From contig NZ_CP102950.1 of NCBI RefSeq assembly GCF_024741795.1, positions 1,364,001 through 1,428,000 of the forward strand: a DNA stretch of 64,000 nt, read 5' to 3'. Made by a program: the position numbers and the translations under genes. The stretch is from Arthrobacter sp. CJ23. GTDB taxonomy: Bacteria; Actinomycetota; Actinomycetes; Actinomycetales; Micrococcaceae. The notes beneath the pieces were generated by a model that was not told where the DNA came from, did no database searches, and saw only the letters and a list, made by a program, of their open reading frames with translations. Position 1 is the stretch's first letter; each line of letters starts with the position of its first letter. This document shows, piece by piece, positions 15,738 to 23,507 of the stretch.

Positions 15738-17501
15738 CTAGAGGCCGAGCGCTTCGCGGACGTCGTCCAGGACGTGGTCCAGTGCAGCGCGGGCCGTCTG
15801 GCGGGCCTGGGGCAGTTCGGCCGCGGAGCCCACGGCCTGGATGACCTCCAGGTAGCACTTGAGCTTGGGTTCGGTGCCGCTGGGGCGGATGATGACCCTG
15901 CTCTGGTCCCGGGTGATGTAGAGCAGCCCATCGGTGGGCGGTAGGTGCGCGCTGCCTTGGGCGAGGTCCGTGAAGGTCTCGACGGCGGAGCCGCCGAACG
16001 CTTCGGGAGGGCTCACCCGCAGCCGGTTCATCATGGCATCCAGCAGGCCCAGGTCGGCCACCCTGATGCTGAGCTGGTCGCTCGCATGCAGCCCGTGCAC
16101 CAGGTACAGCTCGTCCAGGGTGTCGAAGATGGTCTTGCCTTCGGCCTTGGCCGCGGCAGCAAGTTCGGCGATCAGGACGGCAGCGGAAATGCCGTCCTTG
16201 TCCCGCACCAGGGACGGAGCCACACAGTAGCCCAGGGCTTCCTCGTAGCCGTACATCAGTCCGGGAACCCGGGAAATCCATTTGAAGCCGGTGAGGGTTT
16301 CCTCGTGGGCGTAGCCTGCGGCGGACGCGATGCGCGCCAGCAGCCGCGAGGACACGATGGAGTTGGCGAACACGCCACCACCAGCGTCCCCGGCCGCGTG
16401 GGGTTGGTCTTCGTTGCGGGCGGCGAGCCGGGCCACCACGTGCGCCCCCAGGAGGGCGCCCACTTCGTCACCCCGCAGCATCCGCCACGCTCCGCTGTCC
16501 GGGTCCTTCGCCGCGACCGCCGCGCGGTCGGCGTCGGGGTCGTTGGCCAGCACGATGTCCGCGCCGGAGCGGTCCGCGGCGGCCAGGGCCAGATCGAGGG
16601 CTCCGGGTTCCTCGGGGTTCGGGAAGGCCACGGTGGGGAAGTCCGGGTCCGGGTAGGCCTGTTCCTCCACGAGCGTCACGTCCGTGAAACCGGCGGCGTT
16701 GAGCACGGCCACGGCCGTCGCCCCGCCCACGCCGTGCATGGGCGTGAGGATGATCTTCAGCTCCCGGGCCGGGAAATTCGCGGTGTCCGCGAGGCCGGAC
16801 ATGGCGGCTTGGTAGTCCGTGGCGATCGAGCCCGGCAGCACCGTCCAGCCATCGTTGGCCAGCGTGACCGTGTCGAGGGCTCCCACGGCGTCGATCTTCG
16901 CCGCGATCGCCGCGTCGTACGGGGCGACGATCTGCGCGCCGCGCCCGCTTTCCTCCACGGCGTGCCGGCCCAGGTAGACCTTGTAGCCGTTGTCCTGCGG
17001 CGGGTTGTGGCTGGCCGTGACCATCACGCCGCCGTCGCAGTCCAGGGCCCGCACCGCGTAGGCGAGCAGGGGCGTGGGCAGGGCCGCGGGCATCAGGAAC
17101 GTCTCGATCCCGGCAGCGGTGAAGATCGCCGCCGTTTCCAGCGCGAACACATCGGAGTTGTGCCGGGCATCGTAGCCGACGACGGCGCGCGGCCGGGCGC
17201 CCGGGGCCGCCGCAGCCACGGCGTCGTTCAGGAAAGCCGCCAGGCCGGCCGCCGCACGGCGGACCACCACGCGGTTCATCCGGTTGGGGCCCGGGCCCAG
17301 TGCCGCCCGGAGCCCGGCGGTGCCGAACTGCAGCGTTCCGCTGAAGCTGTCGGCCAGTTGCTGCCCCGCGGCAGGGTCGCCGGTGGCGGCCACATCGGCA
17401 AGTTCCTCAAGGGCAGCCGCGGTGCCCGGATCCGGGTCCTGGGAAGCCCACTCGCGGGCTTCGATGATCAGTTGCTCGAATTCGGCACCGTTCGACGTCA
17501 T
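15738..17501 (-). CDS. Phosphoglucomutase/phosphomannomutase
   Basis: 587 residues of the alpha-D-phosphohexomutase superfamily, interconverting hexose 1- and 6-phosphates. Active-site motifs are present in order: phosphoserine loop VMVTASHNPPQDNGYK (about 140-155), metal loop NDPDADR (about 310), sugar loop GYEEALGY (about 415) and phosphate-binding RPSGTEPK (about 547). The length fits the longer PGM2/ManB-like actinobacterial group. The ATG at 17501 has no clear Shine-Dalgarno, so a leaderless message is possible. It is convergent with nirD with only 27 bases between, and downstream of the levan genes, where it could handle hexose phosphates from sucrose (inference). Confidence 0.93.
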   Translation of the reverse strand: MTSNGAEFEQLIIEAREWASQDPDPGTAAALEELADVAATGDPAAGQQLADSFSGTLQFGTAGLRAALGPGPNRMNRVVVRRAAAGLAAFLNDAVAAAAPGARPRAVVGYDARHNSDVFALETAAIFTAAGIETFLMPAALPTPLLAYAVRALDCDGGVMVTASHNPPQDNGYKVYLGRHAVEESGRGAQIVAPYDAAIAAKIDAVGALDTVTLANDGWTVLPGSIATDYQAAMSGLADTANFPARELKIILTPMHGVGGATAVAVLNAAGFTDVTLVEEQAYPDPDFPTVAFPNPEEPGALDLALAAADRSGADIVLANDPDADRAAVAAKDPDSGAWRMLRGDEVGALLGAHVVARLAARNEDQPHAAGDAGGGVFANSIVSSRLLARIASAAGYAHEETLTGFKWISRVPGLMYGYEEALGYCVAPSLVRDKDGISAAVLIAELAAAAKAEGKTIFDTLDELYLVHGLHASDQLSIRVADLGLLDAMMNRLRVSPPEAFGGSAVETFTDLAQGSAHLPPTDGLLYITRDQSRVIIRPSGTEPKLKCYLEVIQAVGSAAELPQARQTARAALDHVLDDVREALGL

Positions 17502-17522
17502 AGGGATAAAGCTATCGTCAAA

Positions 17523-17583
17523 GCGGCCGGAAGCGCAGACCGTCCGTACATCGGACTGATTGCGGTCGTGTCCTTCCGGCCGC
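17523..17583 (-). terminator. Three-tier hairpin downstream of GH32 gene
   Basis: Nested perfect arms pair 17523-17533 with 17573-17583 (11 bp), 17538-17542 with 17563-17567, and TCCG/CGGA at 17543-17546/17552-17555. On the minus strand the outer arm is followed by TTTGACG, a weak U-tract. It lies between the GH32 stop (17601) and the phosphohexomutase start (17501), so it probably ends the GH32 transcript or sets its 3' end. Confidence 0.55.
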
Positions 17584-17600
17584 CTGATTCGTGCCCCGTG

Positions 17601-19259
17601 CTAGTCCAGGGTTGTGCTGGAAACCGTGAACGTGGTGGTGCCCCCGGTGCTGAAGACCGAGGATACTGTGTCTTCCCACGCGGGGAAGAAGGTATCCGTG
17701 ATGACCACGGAGCCGTCCCCGGCGAAGACTTCCACGGAGGACGCGTCCAGCAGGATCCGCAACCGGAGCTTGCCTTCAATGGGCGCCACCGGGGCCTGGT
17801 GGTAGGGGCTGAATTTCTCCGAGAAGTTCGAGGTTCCGGCCTTCGAACGGTCCACCTTGAGGGTCTGCGTGGACGTGTTGTAAGAGATCCGCAGGCCGCT
17901 GCCAGTGCTGCCGTTCCCCGTGCTGCTGCCTGCCGGGCCGCGCAGCACCAGGCCCGCTTCGGCGGCACCCGAGGCATCGAGTTCGACGTCGAGAAGCTGG
18001 CTGCGGCCCCCGAATCCTTCGCCGAGGGACTGGGCGGAGTCGGCCACCGTGAGGTTCTTGCCGTGGACCTCACCGCTGCGGGAGCCGGTGAGGGCCGTCG
18101 CAGCGGCCCCGGCAATGGCGGAACGGAGCTCCAGGCGCTGTCCGCCGTCCACCAGGGTCAGCTCGCGCGGGATGGCCATGGCCCCGCGCCACGGCGTGGT
18201 GGGGACGGACTGGGCGTAGTCCCAGTTCCCCATCCACCCCAGCAGAACGGGCTTGCCGCCGGGGGCTCCGCTGATGGAATTGGCGGCATAGTAATCTGCC
18301 CCGCGGTCCAGCCACTGGGAATCCGTGAGCGGGGCGCCGGGTGCCGTTGCGTTCTCGGCCGTGAACCGGGTGCCGTCGAACTCGCCCACAAAGTACTGCA
18401 TGCCGGAGCCCCCGGCGATGCCGCCGGGGTTGATGCTCAGCAGCATGACCCATTTGCGGAGCCCGCCGGAGCCCTCGACGTCCATGTGGACCAGCTCCGG
18501 GACCTCCCAGAGGCCGCCCTGGGCGCCCACACCCGAGAAATCGCTCAGGAAATCCCAGTGCAGCAGGTCGGTGGACTTGAACAGTTTGATCACTTGGGCG
18601 TCCGCCACCACGGTGGTCATGACCCAGTAGCCGCCTGGTTCATACCAGGTGATCTTGGGGTCGCGGAAGTTCTTCGACGCCGGATTGAGGCTGAGCACCG
18701 GGTTGCCCTGGTACTTGGACCAGGTGGTCCCATGGTCCAGGCTGTAGGCCACGGACTGGGCCTGCGAGCCCTCCGGGAGGGCGCCGCCCTTGCCATAGGC
18801 GCTCGTGTACAGGGCGACCATCGGCGGGTTGTCCTTGGTGCCCAGGCCCGAGGCGTTCCCCGTATCCATGACCATGGCGCCGGAGAAGATTTCCTCGCCG
18901 GCGCCGGCCTCGAGCGCCACGGGCTGCTGGGTCCAGTGGACCAGATCGGTGCTGGTGGAGTGGCCCCAGGACATGTTGCCCCAGGAATTGCCGCGGGGGT
19001 TGTACTGGTAGAAGGCGTGGTACGTCCCGCCGTCGTAGACCAGGCCGTTGGGGTCGTTGAGCCAGTTCTGCTCCGCGGTCAGGTGCACGGCAGGGCGCCA
19101 GGGATCGCCGGCCGAGGGGCCGTGCGCCGCGGCAGCGGCGCTTGGTGAGGGAGCCGGCGTCGGGCCTTGGGTGCAGGCAGCAGCGGTGAGGGCGAGGGCG
19201 ACGGCGGCCACGCCGGAAAGCGCGCGGTGGAGGATGGTCCGGGGGAGAGAGAAAGTCAT
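17601..19259 (-). CDS. Secreted GH32 fructan hydrolase (levanase type), lipoprotein
   Basis: 552 residues. The N-terminus has a lipoprotein signal ending LALTAAAC (lipobox near residue 27), then a Pro/Ala linker. GH32 motifs follow: WLNDPNG near residue 64 (nucleophile Asp), FRDPK near 193 (transition-state Asp) and WEVPEL near 249 (acid/base Glu). A C-terminal beta-sandwich of about 180 residues ends ...TTTFTVSSTTLD. The ATG at 19259 has AGGA 7 bases upstream; a longer reading to 19343 lacks a signal peptide at its start. It probably releases fructose from levan or sucrose outside the cell. It lies downstream of the levansucrase on the same strand, separated by a strong hairpin. Confidence 0.92.
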   Translation of the reverse strand: MTFSLPRTILHRALSGVAAVALALTAAACTQGPTPAPSPSAAAAAHGPSAGDPWRPAVHLTAEQNWLNDPNGLVYDGGTYHAFYQYNPRGNSWGNMSWGHSTSTDLVHWTQQPVALEAGAGEEIFSGAMVMDTGNASGLGTKDNPPMVALYTSAYGKGGALPEGSQAQSVAYSLDHGTTWSKYQGNPVLSLNPASKNFRDPKITWYEPGGYWVMTTVVADAQVIKLFKSTDLLHWDFLSDFSGVGAQGGLWEVPELVHMDVEGSGGLRKWVMLLSINPGGIAGGSGMQYFVGEFDGTRFTAENATAPGAPLTDSQWLDRGADYYAANSISGAPGGKPVLLGWMGNWDYAQSVPTTPWRGAMAIPRELTLVDGGQRLELRSAIAGAAATALTGSRSGEVHGKNLTVADSAQSLGEGFGGRSQLLDVELDASGAAEAGLVLRGPAGSSTGNGSTGSGLRISYNTSTQTLKVDRSKAGTSNFSEKFSPYHQAPVAPIEGKLRLRILLDASSVEVFAGDGSVVITDTFFPAWEDTVSSVFSTGGTTTFTVSSTTLD

Positions 19260-19280
19260 TGTGGATCCTGGGGTTGGGGA

Positions 19281-19312
19281 GCGGGGGCATCCGCTGGTGC
19301 GGACGCCCCCGC
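19281..19312 (-). other. Stable intercistronic hairpin between levansucrase and GH32 genes
   Basis: Arms 19281-19294 and 19299-19312 pair over 14 positions with a single A.C mismatch and a TGGT loop. It ends 22 bases before the GH32 ATG and is not followed by a U-tract on the transcribed strand. It looks more like an mRNA-processing or stability element, or a translational brake, than a classical terminator. Confidence 0.5.
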
Positions 19313-19377
19313 CGTTGCCGGCGGCCGGCCTGAAGGCGGCCATGCCGACTGGGTAGTGCGTTCAGGAACGGGTGTTC

Positions 19378-20979
19378 CTACTTGTAGAGGCCCTCGCCAC
19401 CGACGCGGAGGTTGGTGGGCAGGTAGCCGAACGGGCCGAGGCCGTTCTTCCCGAAGCTGCGGTCAACCTGGGTCACGCCGCCCTGGAAGTTCATCTTCAC
19501 GGTGGGGGAGAGGGAGCCGCCGCGGACGCCTTCAACGTTGTCGATGAAGGACTGCACCAGGCCGCCGGGCTGCACGTAGTGCGAGTAGGCCTGGAACTGG
19601 CGCCCGTTCTGGCGGGGGTCCGGACCTTCCGGCGCGTTGGCCCGCATGTTCAGGTCCGTCGGCGAGCCGAGGGCAAGGCCGCTGTTGTTCACCGGCTGGA
19701 AGTCCGAGCGGACGCCGTTTCCGACGAAGCCGTAGACGCCGTCAGGACCGCGCATGCCGTCCGCGTAGGTGAACTGGTGGCTGATGGTGAACAGGTAGTA
19801 CTTGTTCTGGCCGTTCTCGTTCTGGATGAAGATCTGCGGACGCTCGGTCTGGTCGTTGACGCAGTTGGCGGACAGGATCGGCGGCAGGAAGGACCACTTG
19901 GTGAGGTCCTTGTTGTCCGCCACGGCCAGGCCCACATTGGCGGTCTGGAACCAGGAACCGGTGGTGGTGTTCACCGTGTTGGTGTCTTCCGCGTGGGGAT
20001 CGCCCGCACGGTAGCCGAGGTCTTCGTCCTTGCACTTGTACTCGCCGCGGTTGCCGCCGGTGTTGCCTTCGAAGACCATGAAGGTCTTGCCCGGGTGGGC
20101 CGGGTCGGCGAACGTGTACGGGTCGCGGAAGGCGAAGCCGGGGTTCTGGGCCTTGTTCTGGTACATGACGCCGTCCGGCTCCAGGAGCTTGGTGTGCTCG
20201 AAGCCGTCGAAGGTCACGCCGTTCTGGTCGGCGTGGATGTTGCCCAGGGCCTTGGCGATCACGGCATCGGGGGCGATGCCGCCGCCACCTGCGTTGCGTT
20301 CGGCAACGTCGTAGAACGTGGTGGCCGTGTAGAACACGTTGACGTGGTTGCCCTGCATCAGGCGGGCGGAACCGGACCATTCGGTGTTGCCGATGGAGGT
20401 GTTGTCCAGGAACAGGTGGCCGCCGTAGTTCCACTTGTCCGTGGCCGGATCGGCGTTGGTCTTGCGGAAGAAGTACCCGATGCGGGCGTTCCAGTGGCGC
20501 TGGTCGAAGCCGTAGCCTGCGTGGCGGTCGGCAACCAGGGAGAAGATGACGTCCCAGCCCTTGTAGCTGATCTGGTTCGCGTTCTCATCGGTCAGGGACC
20601 AGGTGTCCCACACCCAGACGTCGTCGTTCATGGCCGGGAAGTCCTTGGGGATTTCCGGCATGGTGACGTTGGGGCTCATGGAGTTCTGGCCGGTTGCAAC
20701 GGTGGCGTCGCTCTGGGCCATGATCTGCTTGGCATCCGCGCGGGTCCACTTGGACGTGAAGTTGGCCGCGGGGTCATAGGCCTCCTGCGTGTGCAGGGTG
20801 GGCAGCGGGAATCCCGGCGTGGGGGCCGGCATTTCGGTGGAGGGCTGGTCGGCCGGCAGGTTTGCCTGCGCAGCAGGGGAAACCAGCAGAACGCCGGCGG
20901 CCACGCTGGCGGCGGCTGCGAAAGCCGCAACCGAGCGCAGACGGCGGCGTGGCCGTGTGGGGGTTGAGTGAGTGTTCAT
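19378..20979 (-). CDS. sacB: Secreted levansucrase (GH68)
   Basis: 533 residues. It has a signal peptide with a basic start (RPRRRLRSVAAF) and cleavage near SPAAQA, and the three GH68 catalytic motifs: VWDTWSL near 123 (nucleophile Asp), FRDPY near 283 (stabilising Asp) and TERPQ near 378 (acid/base Glu). It transfers fructose from sucrose to build levan and also hydrolyses sucrose. The ATG at 20979 is chosen for the signal peptide; the open frame extends to 21123 without one. The paired GH32 gene downstream makes this a make-and-recycle fructan unit. A perfect LacI-type operator lies about 255 bases upstream. Confidence 0.95.
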   Translation of the reverse strand: MNTHSTPTRPRRRLRSVAAFAAAASVAAGVLLVSPAAQANLPADQPSTEMPAPTPGFPLPTLHTQEAYDPAANFTSKWTRADAKQIMAQSDATVATGQNSMSPNVTMPEIPKDFPAMNDDVWVWDTWSLTDENANQISYKGWDVIFSLVADRHAGYGFDQRHWNARIGYFFRKTNADPATDKWNYGGHLFLDNTSIGNTEWSGSARLMQGNHVNVFYTATTFYDVAERNAGGGGIAPDAVIAKALGNIHADQNGVTFDGFEHTKLLEPDGVMYQNKAQNPGFAFRDPYTFADPAHPGKTFMVFEGNTGGNRGEYKCKDEDLGYRAGDPHAEDTNTVNTTTGSWFQTANVGLAVADNKDLTKWSFLPPILSANCVNDQTERPQIFIQNENGQNKYYLFTISHQFTYADGMRGPDGVYGFVGNGVRSDFQPVNNSGLALGSPTDLNMRANAPEGPDPRQNGRQFQAYSHYVQPGGLVQSFIDNVEGVRGGSLSPTVKMNFQGGVTQVDRSFGKNGLGPFGYLPTNLRVGGEGLYK

Positions 20980-21233
20980 GCTTGCTCTTCTCGCGGAGTG
21001 TTGGACTACGTGGAGTGGGGCGCATGCCCTGGCTCTTAACTCCGGCGGCTCCCGATGCGCTGGTGGCGTCATCGAGGGACGCCATCGTGTCGAGGGGCGG
21101 TGAGGCCCTTGTGGGGCGCTCACTGCAGTGGTTCCGGCACGTCGACTTGCCGGAACGGTTCAAACATTTGCACGCCCGGGCCAGTGGATCAAACCGCGTT
21201 TCCTGGCCCGTTTCCAGATGTCAGACAAATTAG

Positions 21234-21431: not shown

Positions 21432-21460
21432 TTCAAAAGTCCAATCGATGGACGTAAAAT
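21432..21460 (+). promoter_or_regulatory. Probable housekeeping-type promoter of the sigma-like gene
   Basis: TTCAAA (21432-21437) and TAAAAT (21455-21460) are separated by exactly 17 bases; matches to TTGACA/TATAAT are 4/6 and 5/6. Transcription would start near 21467, which rules out the in-frame ATG at 21448 and supports the ATG at 21520 as the start of the next gene. Confidence 0.45.
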
Positions 21461-21519: not shown

Positions 21520-22197
21520 ATGTGCGAATTGCCGAAGCGGCGCCTCCGCTCCTCCCTCAATCCAGTGCGCCTCGTGGTGGGTGTCCTGGCGCTCGCTGCC
21601 GTAGCCGCCGGCTGGCTCCTTCCCGAGCTCACGTCGGCCATCCCGATTGGTGCCGGGCTTCTGACGCTCGTCGCCGCGGTGCTCCTCCCCGCGGTCCGGG
21701 AAATCGAGTTCGGCCTGTCGCCAAGTTTCAAGCTCTCTCCGGCCATCAAAGACCGTGAGGCCGAGCTCCGCAGCGTCTTCGAACGGCAAAAGGGCGATCT
21801 GGAGTATTGTGCGCACCTGCTGTGCGATGACCCGGAGACCGCCCGGCAGCTGCTCGAAGCCGCCTGGTCCCAAGCCGCGTCGGCCTGGAAGGGCCCCGTC
21901 ACTCCGCAGTTGCGCGTCTACACGCTGTGCGTCTTTGTCCACATGCTCCAGAAACACGAGCGCTGGCTGCAGCCACATGGCGCGGAGTCGAAGAAAAAGA
22001 AAAGAAGCCCTGCCACCAGCCCGCTCGCGGCGCTGCCGCCCAGCGAGCGGATGGTCACCGTACTGCACGAATTCGCAGGGCTGACCATTGGCGAGATCGC
22101 CGGCATGACGGAGCGGACGACGCCGGAAGTGACCAGATCACTGGCCCTCGCCTCGTCTGTGACAGGCCGCTTGCCGCTTGAAGAAGGCCGGCCATGA
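21520..22197 (+). CDS. Membrane-anchored ECF-sigma-like protein
   Basis: 225 residues. Two adjacent membrane helices (about 16-34 and 39-60) come first. A cytosolic part follows, with a sigma region 2-like helix pair (about 78-145; CAHLLCDDPETARQLLEAAW then RVYTLCVFVHMLQKHERW), a basic KKKKRSP stretch, and a region 4-like helix-turn-helix (about 170-215; LPPSERMVTVLHEFAGLTI, GEIAGMTERTTPEVTRSLAL). ECF sigma factors are normally soluble, so N-terminal anchoring is odd. It may be a membrane-held sigma factor or a sigma-derived signalling protein that no longer initiates transcription. Its TGA overlaps the next ATG (ATGA), so the two proteins are probably made together. The start is uncertain (see the promoter at 21432). 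Confidence 0.7.
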   Translation: MCELPKRRLRSSLNPVRLVVGVLALAAVAAGWLLPELTSAIPIGAGLLTLVAAVLLPAVREIEFGLSPSFKLSPAIKDREAELRSVFERQKGDLEYCAHLLCDDPETARQLLEAAWSQAASAWKGPVTPQLRVYTLCVFVHMLQKHERWLQPHGAESKKKKRSPATSPLAALPPSERMVTVLHEFAGLTIGEIAGMTERTTPEVTRSLALASSVTGRLPLEEGRP

Positions 22198-23507
22198 ACC
22201 AGGAGCTGCGGCAACGGCTTCTCGCCGACGCAGCCGTCCAGGTGCGCAAACATCCCGCGGACCTTGAGTCCGCCGTCGTCGAGGGTCTTGCCCGCGCGCG
22301 ACGGCGGTTCCTCATCACCTGTGCCGTCGCCCTCGCAGCCGCGTTGCTTGTGACGGCCGGGTTGGTTGCATTGCGACTGCTCCTTGCACCCCTGGCGCCG
22401 GTCACCCTCGCCTCGATCGCCGTCGCAGGGCCCCCGCAGGCCCAGGCGCAGGCCCTGCGGCCGGAGGCGAGCATTGCATTGACCGCAACCGGGACGTACA
22501 GCGACGGCTCCAGCCGGCGCCTGGACTCAGGGGTGTCATGGGCCTCAAGCAACCAGGACGTTGCCAAGATCAGCCCGGCCGGCGTGGTCACTGCTGTGGC
22601 TCCTGGAGACGCGAGCCTCACGGCCACTCTGGGCGGTGTGTCCGGAAGCCTCGTGCTGGCGGTGCTGGCACCGGACGGCGGGCAGTTGGCCGCCTTGCAG
22701 GTCAATCCCGGCGAAGCTTCCATGGACTCCGGAGGGCGACTGCAGCTCCTGGCCGAGGGCACCTTCAGCGACGGTTCACTCGGCACCCTCAACGCCTCGG
22801 CCCTGTGGGCCTCCAGCAACCCCGGGATTGCGGCAGTTGACGGCAATGGGCTGGTCACGGCGGCCACGCCGGGCACCGCCACCATCTCCGCCGCCCAGGC
22901 CGGCCTGCAGGGAGTCTCGGTGATCACCGTGACCGTTCCGCCTGCGGCCAAGCCCACCGCGCTGTCCATTGACCCCGGAAAGCTCACGCTCAAGGAAAAG
23001 CAATCCGCGCAGCTCACGGCGGTGGCTACGTACTCGGACGGTACCAGCGGCACCGTCACGAACGTCACCTGGGGCACGGTCCCGGTGCAGAGCAAAGTGG
23101 CCACCGTGGATGCCTCCGGACTGCTCACCGCGCACAGCCTTGGCACCGTGACCATGACGGCCGCTATGGCAGGTGCCGACGGCCAGCAGCTTCGGGCCCA
23201 GGCCTCGCTCACGGTGGAGCATTCCGTCAAGAGCATCGTCGTCTCGCCGGCGGGACCGCTCCAGCTCGAGCCCGGAGCCAGCGTCCAATTGACCGCAACC
23301 GTCTTCTACAGCGACGGCACAAAGGGGACATCCGTCACCTGGGCGTCCAGCCGGCCGATCTTTGCCTCGGTCAGCCAGTCGGGGGTCGTAAAGGGCTCGT
23401 TCCAGGGCTCGACGACGGTCACGGCGTCAGCGGACGGTGTATCCAGCAACCCAGTGGGCGTCGCCGTCGGGAACGTGGCACCGGACCCCGGACCAGTGAA
23501 GCAATAG
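22194..23507 (+). CDS. Single-pass membrane protein with four extracellular Big_2-like domains
   Basis: 437 residues. A short cytosolic segment (1-38, MNQELRQRLLADAAVQ) leads to one membrane helix (about 39-66), then four tandem bacterial Ig-like (Big_2) repeats of about 85 residues. Their repeating marks are YSDGSS/FSDGSL/YSDGTS/YSDGTK, WASSN and the GLVTA turn. The topology matches type II sensors or anti-sigma factors, with the small cytosolic tail available to bind the sigma-like partner. GAAGAAGG precedes the ATG and the gene overlaps the upstream stop by 4 bases. No catalytic site is seen. The job is inferred: surface sensing or adhesion coupled to the sigma-like protein. Confidence 0.8.
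   Translation: MNQELRQRLLADAAVQVRKHPADLESAVVEGLARARRRFLITCAVALAAALLVTAGLVALRLLLAPLAPVTLASIAVAGPPQAQAQALRPEASIALTATGTYSDGSSRRLDSGVSWASSNQDVAKISPAGVVTAVAPGDASLTATLGGVSGSLVLAVLAPDGGQLAALQVNPGEASMDSGGRLQLLAEGTFSDGSLGTLNASALWASSNPGIAAVDGNGLVTAATPGTATISAAQAGLQGVSVITVTVPPAAKPTALSIDPGKLTLKEKQSAQLTAVATYSDGTSGTVTNVTWGTVPVQSKVATVDASGLLTAHSLGTVTMTAAMAGADGQQLRAQASLTVEHSVKSIVVSPAGPLQLEPGASVQLTATVFYSDGTKGTSVTWASSRPIFASVSQSGVVKGSFQGSTTVTASADGVSSNPVGVAVGNVAPDPGPVKQ

Follow-up and report, generated by a model that had tools for sequence, protein, structure and literature searches.

Extracytoplasmic function (ECF) sigma factor systems are a main route by which envelope signals reach bacterial transcription, and some ECF sigma factors are fused to the membrane. 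According to the consulted parts of PMC8999054, the groups ECF48, ECF52 and ECF53 have C-terminal transmembrane (TM) helices, IutY is another fused member, and some ECF36 proteins have N-terminal TM helices. Here, we describe two overlapping open reading frames (ORFs), ORF1 and ORF2, in a 64,000-nucleotide stretch of the genome of Arthrobacter sp. CJ23 (contig NZ_CP102950.1, positions 1,364,001 to 1,428,000, forward strand; this whole stretch is called the window below). ORF1 encodes a membrane-anchored sigma-like protein that has probably ceased to function as a sigma factor, and ORF2 encodes an envelope protein with a short, putatively cytosolic tail.

In ECF48, ECF52, ECF53, IutY (ECF243) and some ECF36 proteins, as described in the consulted parts of PMC8999054 and PMC5826349, the sigma domain is joined to a membrane segment, and so it is in ORF1. 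Thus, the tethering itself, which an initial annotation of this DNA had proposed as possibly a new form of trans-membrane signalling, has precedents in PMC8999054. However, the details differ. In ECF48, ECF52, ECF53 and IutY the fusion is described as C-terminal, with a zinc finger in the first three groups, whereas the TM helices of ORF1 are N-terminal, and no zinc-finger match was found in ORF1 with Pfam or NCBIfam. The ECF36 proteins with N-terminal helices are described with three to four of them and a DUF2275 domain, whereas ORF1 has two and gave no DUF2275 match in Pfam. Furthermore, the consulted parts of the two papers describe no loss of DNA contacts in membrane-fused ECFs, unlike what we found in ORF1.

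The SigE-family ECFs (TIGR02983) have a sigma2-sigma4 body homologous to that of ORF1. Among 27 ordinary SigE-type ECFs used as controls, the gene overlaps the next one by 4 nt in 21, and a TM helix is predicted in the next product in 24. None of the 27 has a TM helix in the sigma factor itself, and their RNA polymerase (RNAP) and DNA residues are intact, unlike ORF1 on both counts. Since ordinary ECFs lack TM helices and yet have overlapping genes for TM partners, ORF1 and ORF2 are laid out like a sigma/partner operon, but with the sigma protein now anchored.

A sigma mimic is known in PhyR, an anti-anti-sigma factor with a receiver domain (PMC4598750, in the part consulted), whereas ORF1 has 225 aa and no receiver match in Pfam. 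Where PhyR has its receiver domain, ORF1 has a TM hairpin, and its partner is a membrane protein encoded by an overlapping gene. In the CnrH/CnrY pair, CnrH is a working sigma factor, which ORF1 probably is not, and the predicted ORF2 tail resembles CnrY in architecture, not in sequence. In the sources consulted, membrane-fused ECFs, class II anti-sigma factors and PhyR are each known separately. The combination of a membrane sigma mimic with an anti-sigma-like partner was not found in the literature searched, which included PMC8103513 and PMC7406223 besides the papers cited here (subscription papers, preprints and the class-wide ECF classification lay outside this search). If our reading holds, sigma mimicry is not confined to PhyR of the alphaproteobacteria but also arose at the membrane, in a different phylum. 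In addition, some proteins labelled as sigma factors may not be such; for instance, a Kocuria relative of ORF1 is named 'RNA polymerase sigma factor'.

The gene pair and its distribution

The coordinates and reading frames of ORF1 and ORF2 are exact in the window. The features of the pair are as follows:

21520..22197, forward strand: ORF1, membrane-anchored sigma-like protein of 225 aa (reading frame, profile matches, model)
21565..21621, forward strand: predicted ORF1 TM helix 1, residues 16-34 (hydropathy and model)
21640..21696, forward strand: predicted ORF1 TM helix 2, residues 41-59 (hydropathy and model)
21742..21969, forward strand: ORF1 sigma2-like domain (residues 75-150) with a retained core and substitutions in region 2.2/2.3 (E113, A114, L136, C137)
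22012..22167, forward strand: ORF1 sigma4-like domain (residues 165-216), in which most of the -35 contact residues are gone (H183, positions 202-212)
22194..22197, forward strand: ATGA shared by the ORF1 stop and the ORF2 start (18 of 22 loci overlap by 4 nt)
22194..23507, forward strand: ORF2, type II membrane protein of 437 aa with four Big_2 domains (Pfam and model)
22194..22307, forward strand: ORF2 putative cytosolic tail, residues 1-38, predicted helix-break-helix (model and alignment)
22311..22367, forward strand: predicted ORF2 TM helix, residues 40-58 (hydropathy)
22407..23468, forward strand: four extracytoplasmic Big_2 repeats of ORF2, at about residues 72-425 (Pfam stretches and modelled beta strands)

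The two hydrophobic segments of ORF1 (residues 16-34 and 41-59 by hydropathy) form a helical hairpin in the structure model (15-33/37-63). In 21 of 22 loci, three to six Lys/Arg residues precede the first segment (for locus L006 the count began at a truncated start), and the loop between the helices has none, again in 21 of 22. Given this charge distribution, both ends of ORF1 are most likely cytosolic. The annotated database start of ORF1 in the source genome (P0003) lies three codons downstream of 21520. We favour 21520 because the start MC-[ED] is conserved, with Cys2 in 58 of the 58 rows having that position.

The distribution was studied by several searches. When the best 7998 protein candidates (those with most shared words) were scored against ORF1, 57 proteins were found, including the one of the window; their named hosts are Arthrobacter, Paenarthrobacter, Pseudarthrobacter, Sinomonas, Kocuria and 'Micrococcaceae bacterium'. 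The whole-genome searches scored the best candidates of each genome: 7 for the family and class, 10 for the order, and 41 for the ORF2 tail with its TM helix. In the family, 395 genomes were searched and at least 20 have a full-length ORF1 member (E <= 7e-67); the corresponding figures are at least 3 of 297 genomes for the order (one from another family) and at least 1 of 394, the source genome, for the class. These three samples overlap. A contig search gave 8 loci, including one from a Cellulomonas. After removal of duplicates, the set had 22 loci from 22 genomes, all Micrococcaceae except the Cellulomonas and all found via ORF1.

Both genes are present in 22 of 22 loci. Meanwhile, the ORF2 tail and TM helix, searched in 149 genomes, matched 8 places at E <= 3e-20, every one beside ORF1, and the next match had E = 1.6e-4. 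Thus, ORF1 and ORF2 are a real, narrow two-gene family. The ratio of nonsynonymous to synonymous substitution rates (dN/dS) of ORF1 was 0.08-0.28 in 10 of 11 locus pairs, and the eleventh pair was saturated. This low dN/dS and the presence of both genes in all loci indicate that the two are not chance ORFs, and purifying selection acts on ORF1 in its present form.

When neighbouring ORFs of at least 120 aa were clustered (E 1e-15), only ORF1 and ORF2 reached all 22 loci, and the next clusters (17 and 15 loci) were mechanical antisense ORFs. No regulator or protease was conserved beside the pair at this size limit, which smaller or fast-changing genes could escape; locus L007 covers only 747 bases upstream. 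A levansucrase-PNP neighbourhood is common to six Arthrobacter-type loci, window included, and the other loci have different neighbours. In addition, 28 of 30 PNP loci (taken from 41 matching genomes) had no ORF1/ORF2 pair within the flank, and in 5 of these 28 levansucrase and PNP were adjacent. Thus, ORF1 and ORF2 seem to be gained and lost together.

Origin and probable remodelling of the sigma-like domains

The NCBIfam SigE-family profile (TIGR02983) matched ORF1 at residues 78-197 (E = 3.9e-7, 30.1 bits; the curated cut-off of 141.55 was not reached), and the sigma2 and sigma4 folds are both present in the predicted model. These two results are the independent support for sigma homology. 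A profile of the 22 ORF1 proteins also matched the profile of the 27 SigE-type ECFs with 98.6-99.1% probability across both domains, although the 27 had been picked because they match the ORF1 family profile, so that this score is not independent. The family profile further matched ordinary ECFs of other actinobacterial families at residues about 68-218, with E down to 3.7e-14 in the class and 5e-11 in the order. In a tree of 60 rows, all ORF1 family members fell into a single clade (100/100) whose long stem measures 2.4 changes per column, and the SigE-type rows branched nearest to it, with the root placed by midpoint only. From these comparisons, the sigma-like body of ORF1 belongs to a divergent lineage that is related to the SigE-family ECFs.

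In the model, the two domains take a closed arrangement like that of anti-sigma-bound ECFs and PhyR, unlike RNAP-bound sigma. This likeness rests on VIA alignment of Foldseek candidates; Foldseek alone gave no match of the ORF1 model under E 0.001 (best 1.4e-3). It could be argued that an unrelated membrane protein only resembles a helix-turn-helix protein by chance, and the Pfam region 4 profile (Sigma70_r4_2) indeed scored under its cut-off (E = 8e-4). However, the profile-profile and fold results contradict this explanation, which is extremely improbable. The relation of the helix-turn-helix to region 4, on which the initial annotation depended, is real by the same two lines, and the sigma-derived domains, the N-terminal tether and the overlapping type II partner that it described were all found.

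The residues of 71 ORF1 family rows were then compared with those of the 27 ordinary ECFs. Two of the compared residues, D110 and Q113, are presumably the equivalents of sigma70 D403 and Q406, which contact the beta' coiled coil (a literature search for this equivalence gave nothing). D110 is found in 1 of 71 family rows (23 of 27 ordinary ECFs) and Q113 in 1 of 71 (26 of 27). The beta' contact residues are conserved in ECFs (PMC6411747, part consulted). The presumed RNAP beta' contacts of region 2.2 are lost in nearly all of the ORF1 family. Likewise, R136 occurs in 0 of 71 rows against 26 of 27, R/K137 in 0 against 21, R/K183 in 5 against 25, G202 in 1 against 27, T/S203 in 6 against 26, and R/K205 in 11 against 27.

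In E. coli sigma-E, the -35 element is contacted by R149, T169, R171, S172, R173, F175, R176 and R178 (PMC6713349, part consulted), and these align, in that order, with ORF1 positions 183, 203, 205, 206, 207, 209, 210 and 212. All eight contact residues are absent from most members, being kept in 3 to 12 of 71. Furthermore, at positions 183, 205, 206, 207, 210 and 212, three residues are basic in 27 of 27 ECFs, whereas 59 of 71 family rows have none (22 rows) or one (37 rows). The mean charge of the recognition helix is +0.1 in the family and +2.3 in ordinary ECFs, and about 10-12 residues past region 2.4 are missing from the family.

Other positions are newly conserved: E113 and A114 (66 of 71 each), L136 (67), C137 (71) and H183 (66), and W123 and G125 are present in all 71 rows. 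The pair 136-137, RR-like in ordinary ECFs, has become Leu and Cys. The change looks like remodelling, not decay.

Four of the eight -35 positions discriminate little between the family and ordinary ECFs: few of the SigE-type controls have the sigma-E residues R173 and R178 (0 and 2 of 27), and just 15 of 27 have S172 and R176. Two observations weigh against a loss of sigma function. Y134 and a hydrophobic residue at 138, placed by eye at the -10-pocket positions of sigma-H (PMC6411747, part consulted), are kept. In addition, a loss of charge was looked for in region 2.3-2.4, and the net charge there was unchanged. Nevertheless, ORF1 is probably not a working sigma factor.

The initial annotation had viewed ORF1 as a tethered sigma factor, possibly cut free by a protease. 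The sigma fold and the tether stand, but the sigma function probably does not, as seven key residues present in 23-27 of 27 ECFs are kept in 0-11 of 71 rows. In such a scheme, ORF2 would sense the envelope and a protease would release the ORF1 body, which would direct RNAP to promoters as in IutY or the ECF52 model. Both domains are predicted to keep the fold, Y134 and a W-x-G-P loop are conserved, and some tethered ECFs are, or are expected to be, switched on by proteolysis (PMC8999054, part consulted). Against these stand the missing -35 contacts (four of them weakly discriminating), the loss of D110 and Q113, the few basic residues at the six DNA positions, and the lack of a conserved protease gene among the neighbouring ORFs of at least 120 aa. 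Release of an active sigma factor is not favoured, because the ORF1 domain is probably no longer a working one, and we judge this scheme clearly unlikely.

The conserved cysteines could suggest a thiol or metal sensor, in which a redox or metal site built from Cys2, Cys97, Cys102 and Cys137 would tune the grip of ORF1 on ORF2 from the cytosol. Cys2 is invariant where aligned (13 of 71 rows are gapped there), the four occur together in 51 of 58 rows, and C137 is universal. However, Cys102 is common in ordinary ECFs too (13 of 27), and Cys2 precedes the first TM helix and may be far from the others. This explanation is very unlikely.

The envelope partner and a possible partner switch

The Big_2 domain was detected in four stretches of ORF2 (Pfam, E = 1.1e-37), and 20 of the 21 scanned ORF2 proteins contain it, each in one to four stretches; the exception is that of L080 (173 aa). 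One relative (L074:6196-7635) has Big_2 and a C-terminal PASTA domain (E = 9.8e-15). PASTA domains bind cell-wall precursors. In the window, a weaker hydrophobic stretch (59-77) abuts the TM helix at 40-58, and the model begins its beta strands at 72.

The charge distribution suggests that the ORF2 tail is cytosolic. It is conserved (M1, A13 and G31 in 18 of 18 aligned sequences) and predicted as helix-break-helix with moderate confidence (pLDDT 61-78 over the tail). Thus, the small cytosolic tail that had been noted initially does seem to exist, and it could contact the sigma part. The predicted tail matches the anti-sigma factors CnrY and NepR in architecture, not in sequence. When searched alone against 441 ORFs, the 38-aa tail gave no match to SigE-type partners (best E 0.37). 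A 66-aa profile including the TM helix had several SigE-type partner genes among its first matches in the same ORFs (best E 1.7e-4). Since the tail alone found nothing, this signal is probably due to TM and Arg composition. A search with ORF2 residues 1-75 matched 3 proteins, query included. As a separate observation, the ORF2 start region is tandemly repeated at L006:8640-8710 (GTGAACAGGGAGCTGCG), and the ORF2 start used there is 47 nt beyond the ORF1 stop.

We tentatively propose that ORF1/ORF2 is a remodelled ECF sigma/anti-sigma operon whose sigma protein has become a membrane-resident mimic with an envelope-controlled partner switch; as a whole, this is plausible but somewhat short of probable. 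By analogy with CnrY on CnrH and NepR on PhyR, the ORF2 tail would clasp ORF1 across sigma2 and sigma4 at the membrane. The signal and the output are inferred further. The Big_2 domains, once with PASTA, may contact the cell wall, and changes in the wall might move the tail from ORF1 to a true ECF elsewhere or back, so that ORF1 would act as a membrane-bound anti-anti-sigma factor and not as a sigma factor. Other ECFs are abundant in the module-bearing genomes searched, and the parental SigE family scored over its cut-off in one of 21 such genomes (of the 22), that of the Cellulomonas. That an ECF sigma factor acquired a TM hairpin, abandoned both DNA and polymerase, became fixed to an anti-sigma-like Ig protein, and now serves as an in-membrane partner switch on other ECF pathways seems possible but doubtful.

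The lost DNA and RNAP contacts, the conservation of other positions and the changed 136-137 pair would also suit a structural role, in which the sigma fold is the cytosolic adaptor of an envelope complex for wall anchoring or assembly, with no link to transcription. The Big_2 domains and the one PASTA domain fit wall binding, and no regulator is conserved among the neighbouring ORFs of at least 120 aa. However, the predicted closed arrangement like that of anti-sigma-bound sigma and PhyR, together with the retained sigma-operon layout, speaks against it, and we regard a purely structural role as rather unlikely.

Upstream element and neighbouring genes

One further feature lies upstream of ORF1:

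21440..21460, forward strand: promoter/operator-like element, inverted repeat TCCA-N5-TGGA, 2 nt, then TAAAAT (-10-like) (aligned upstream regions)

This element is conserved upstream of ORF1 in the Arthrobacter-type loci and more loosely in the Sinomonas-type ones. Its zero-mismatch copies numbered 6 in 12 genomes searched, all upstream of the module. It looks like the putative site of a dimeric regulator over a housekeeping-type promoter, not like an ECF promoter.

On the minus strand upstream of ORF1 (15738-21123) lie what we take to be phosphomannomutase-like, GH32 levanase-like and levansucrase-like genes. In addition, in four Arthrobacter-type genomes (L159-L162), a second copy of the repeat with one mismatch precedes, by about 95 nt, a gene of 1008 aa that is presumably an alpha-mannosidase; L159 is in the source genome (C1:961229-961249), and two of the four genomes gave no ORF1 match. 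The repeat at both sites perhaps serves a shared sugar regulator.
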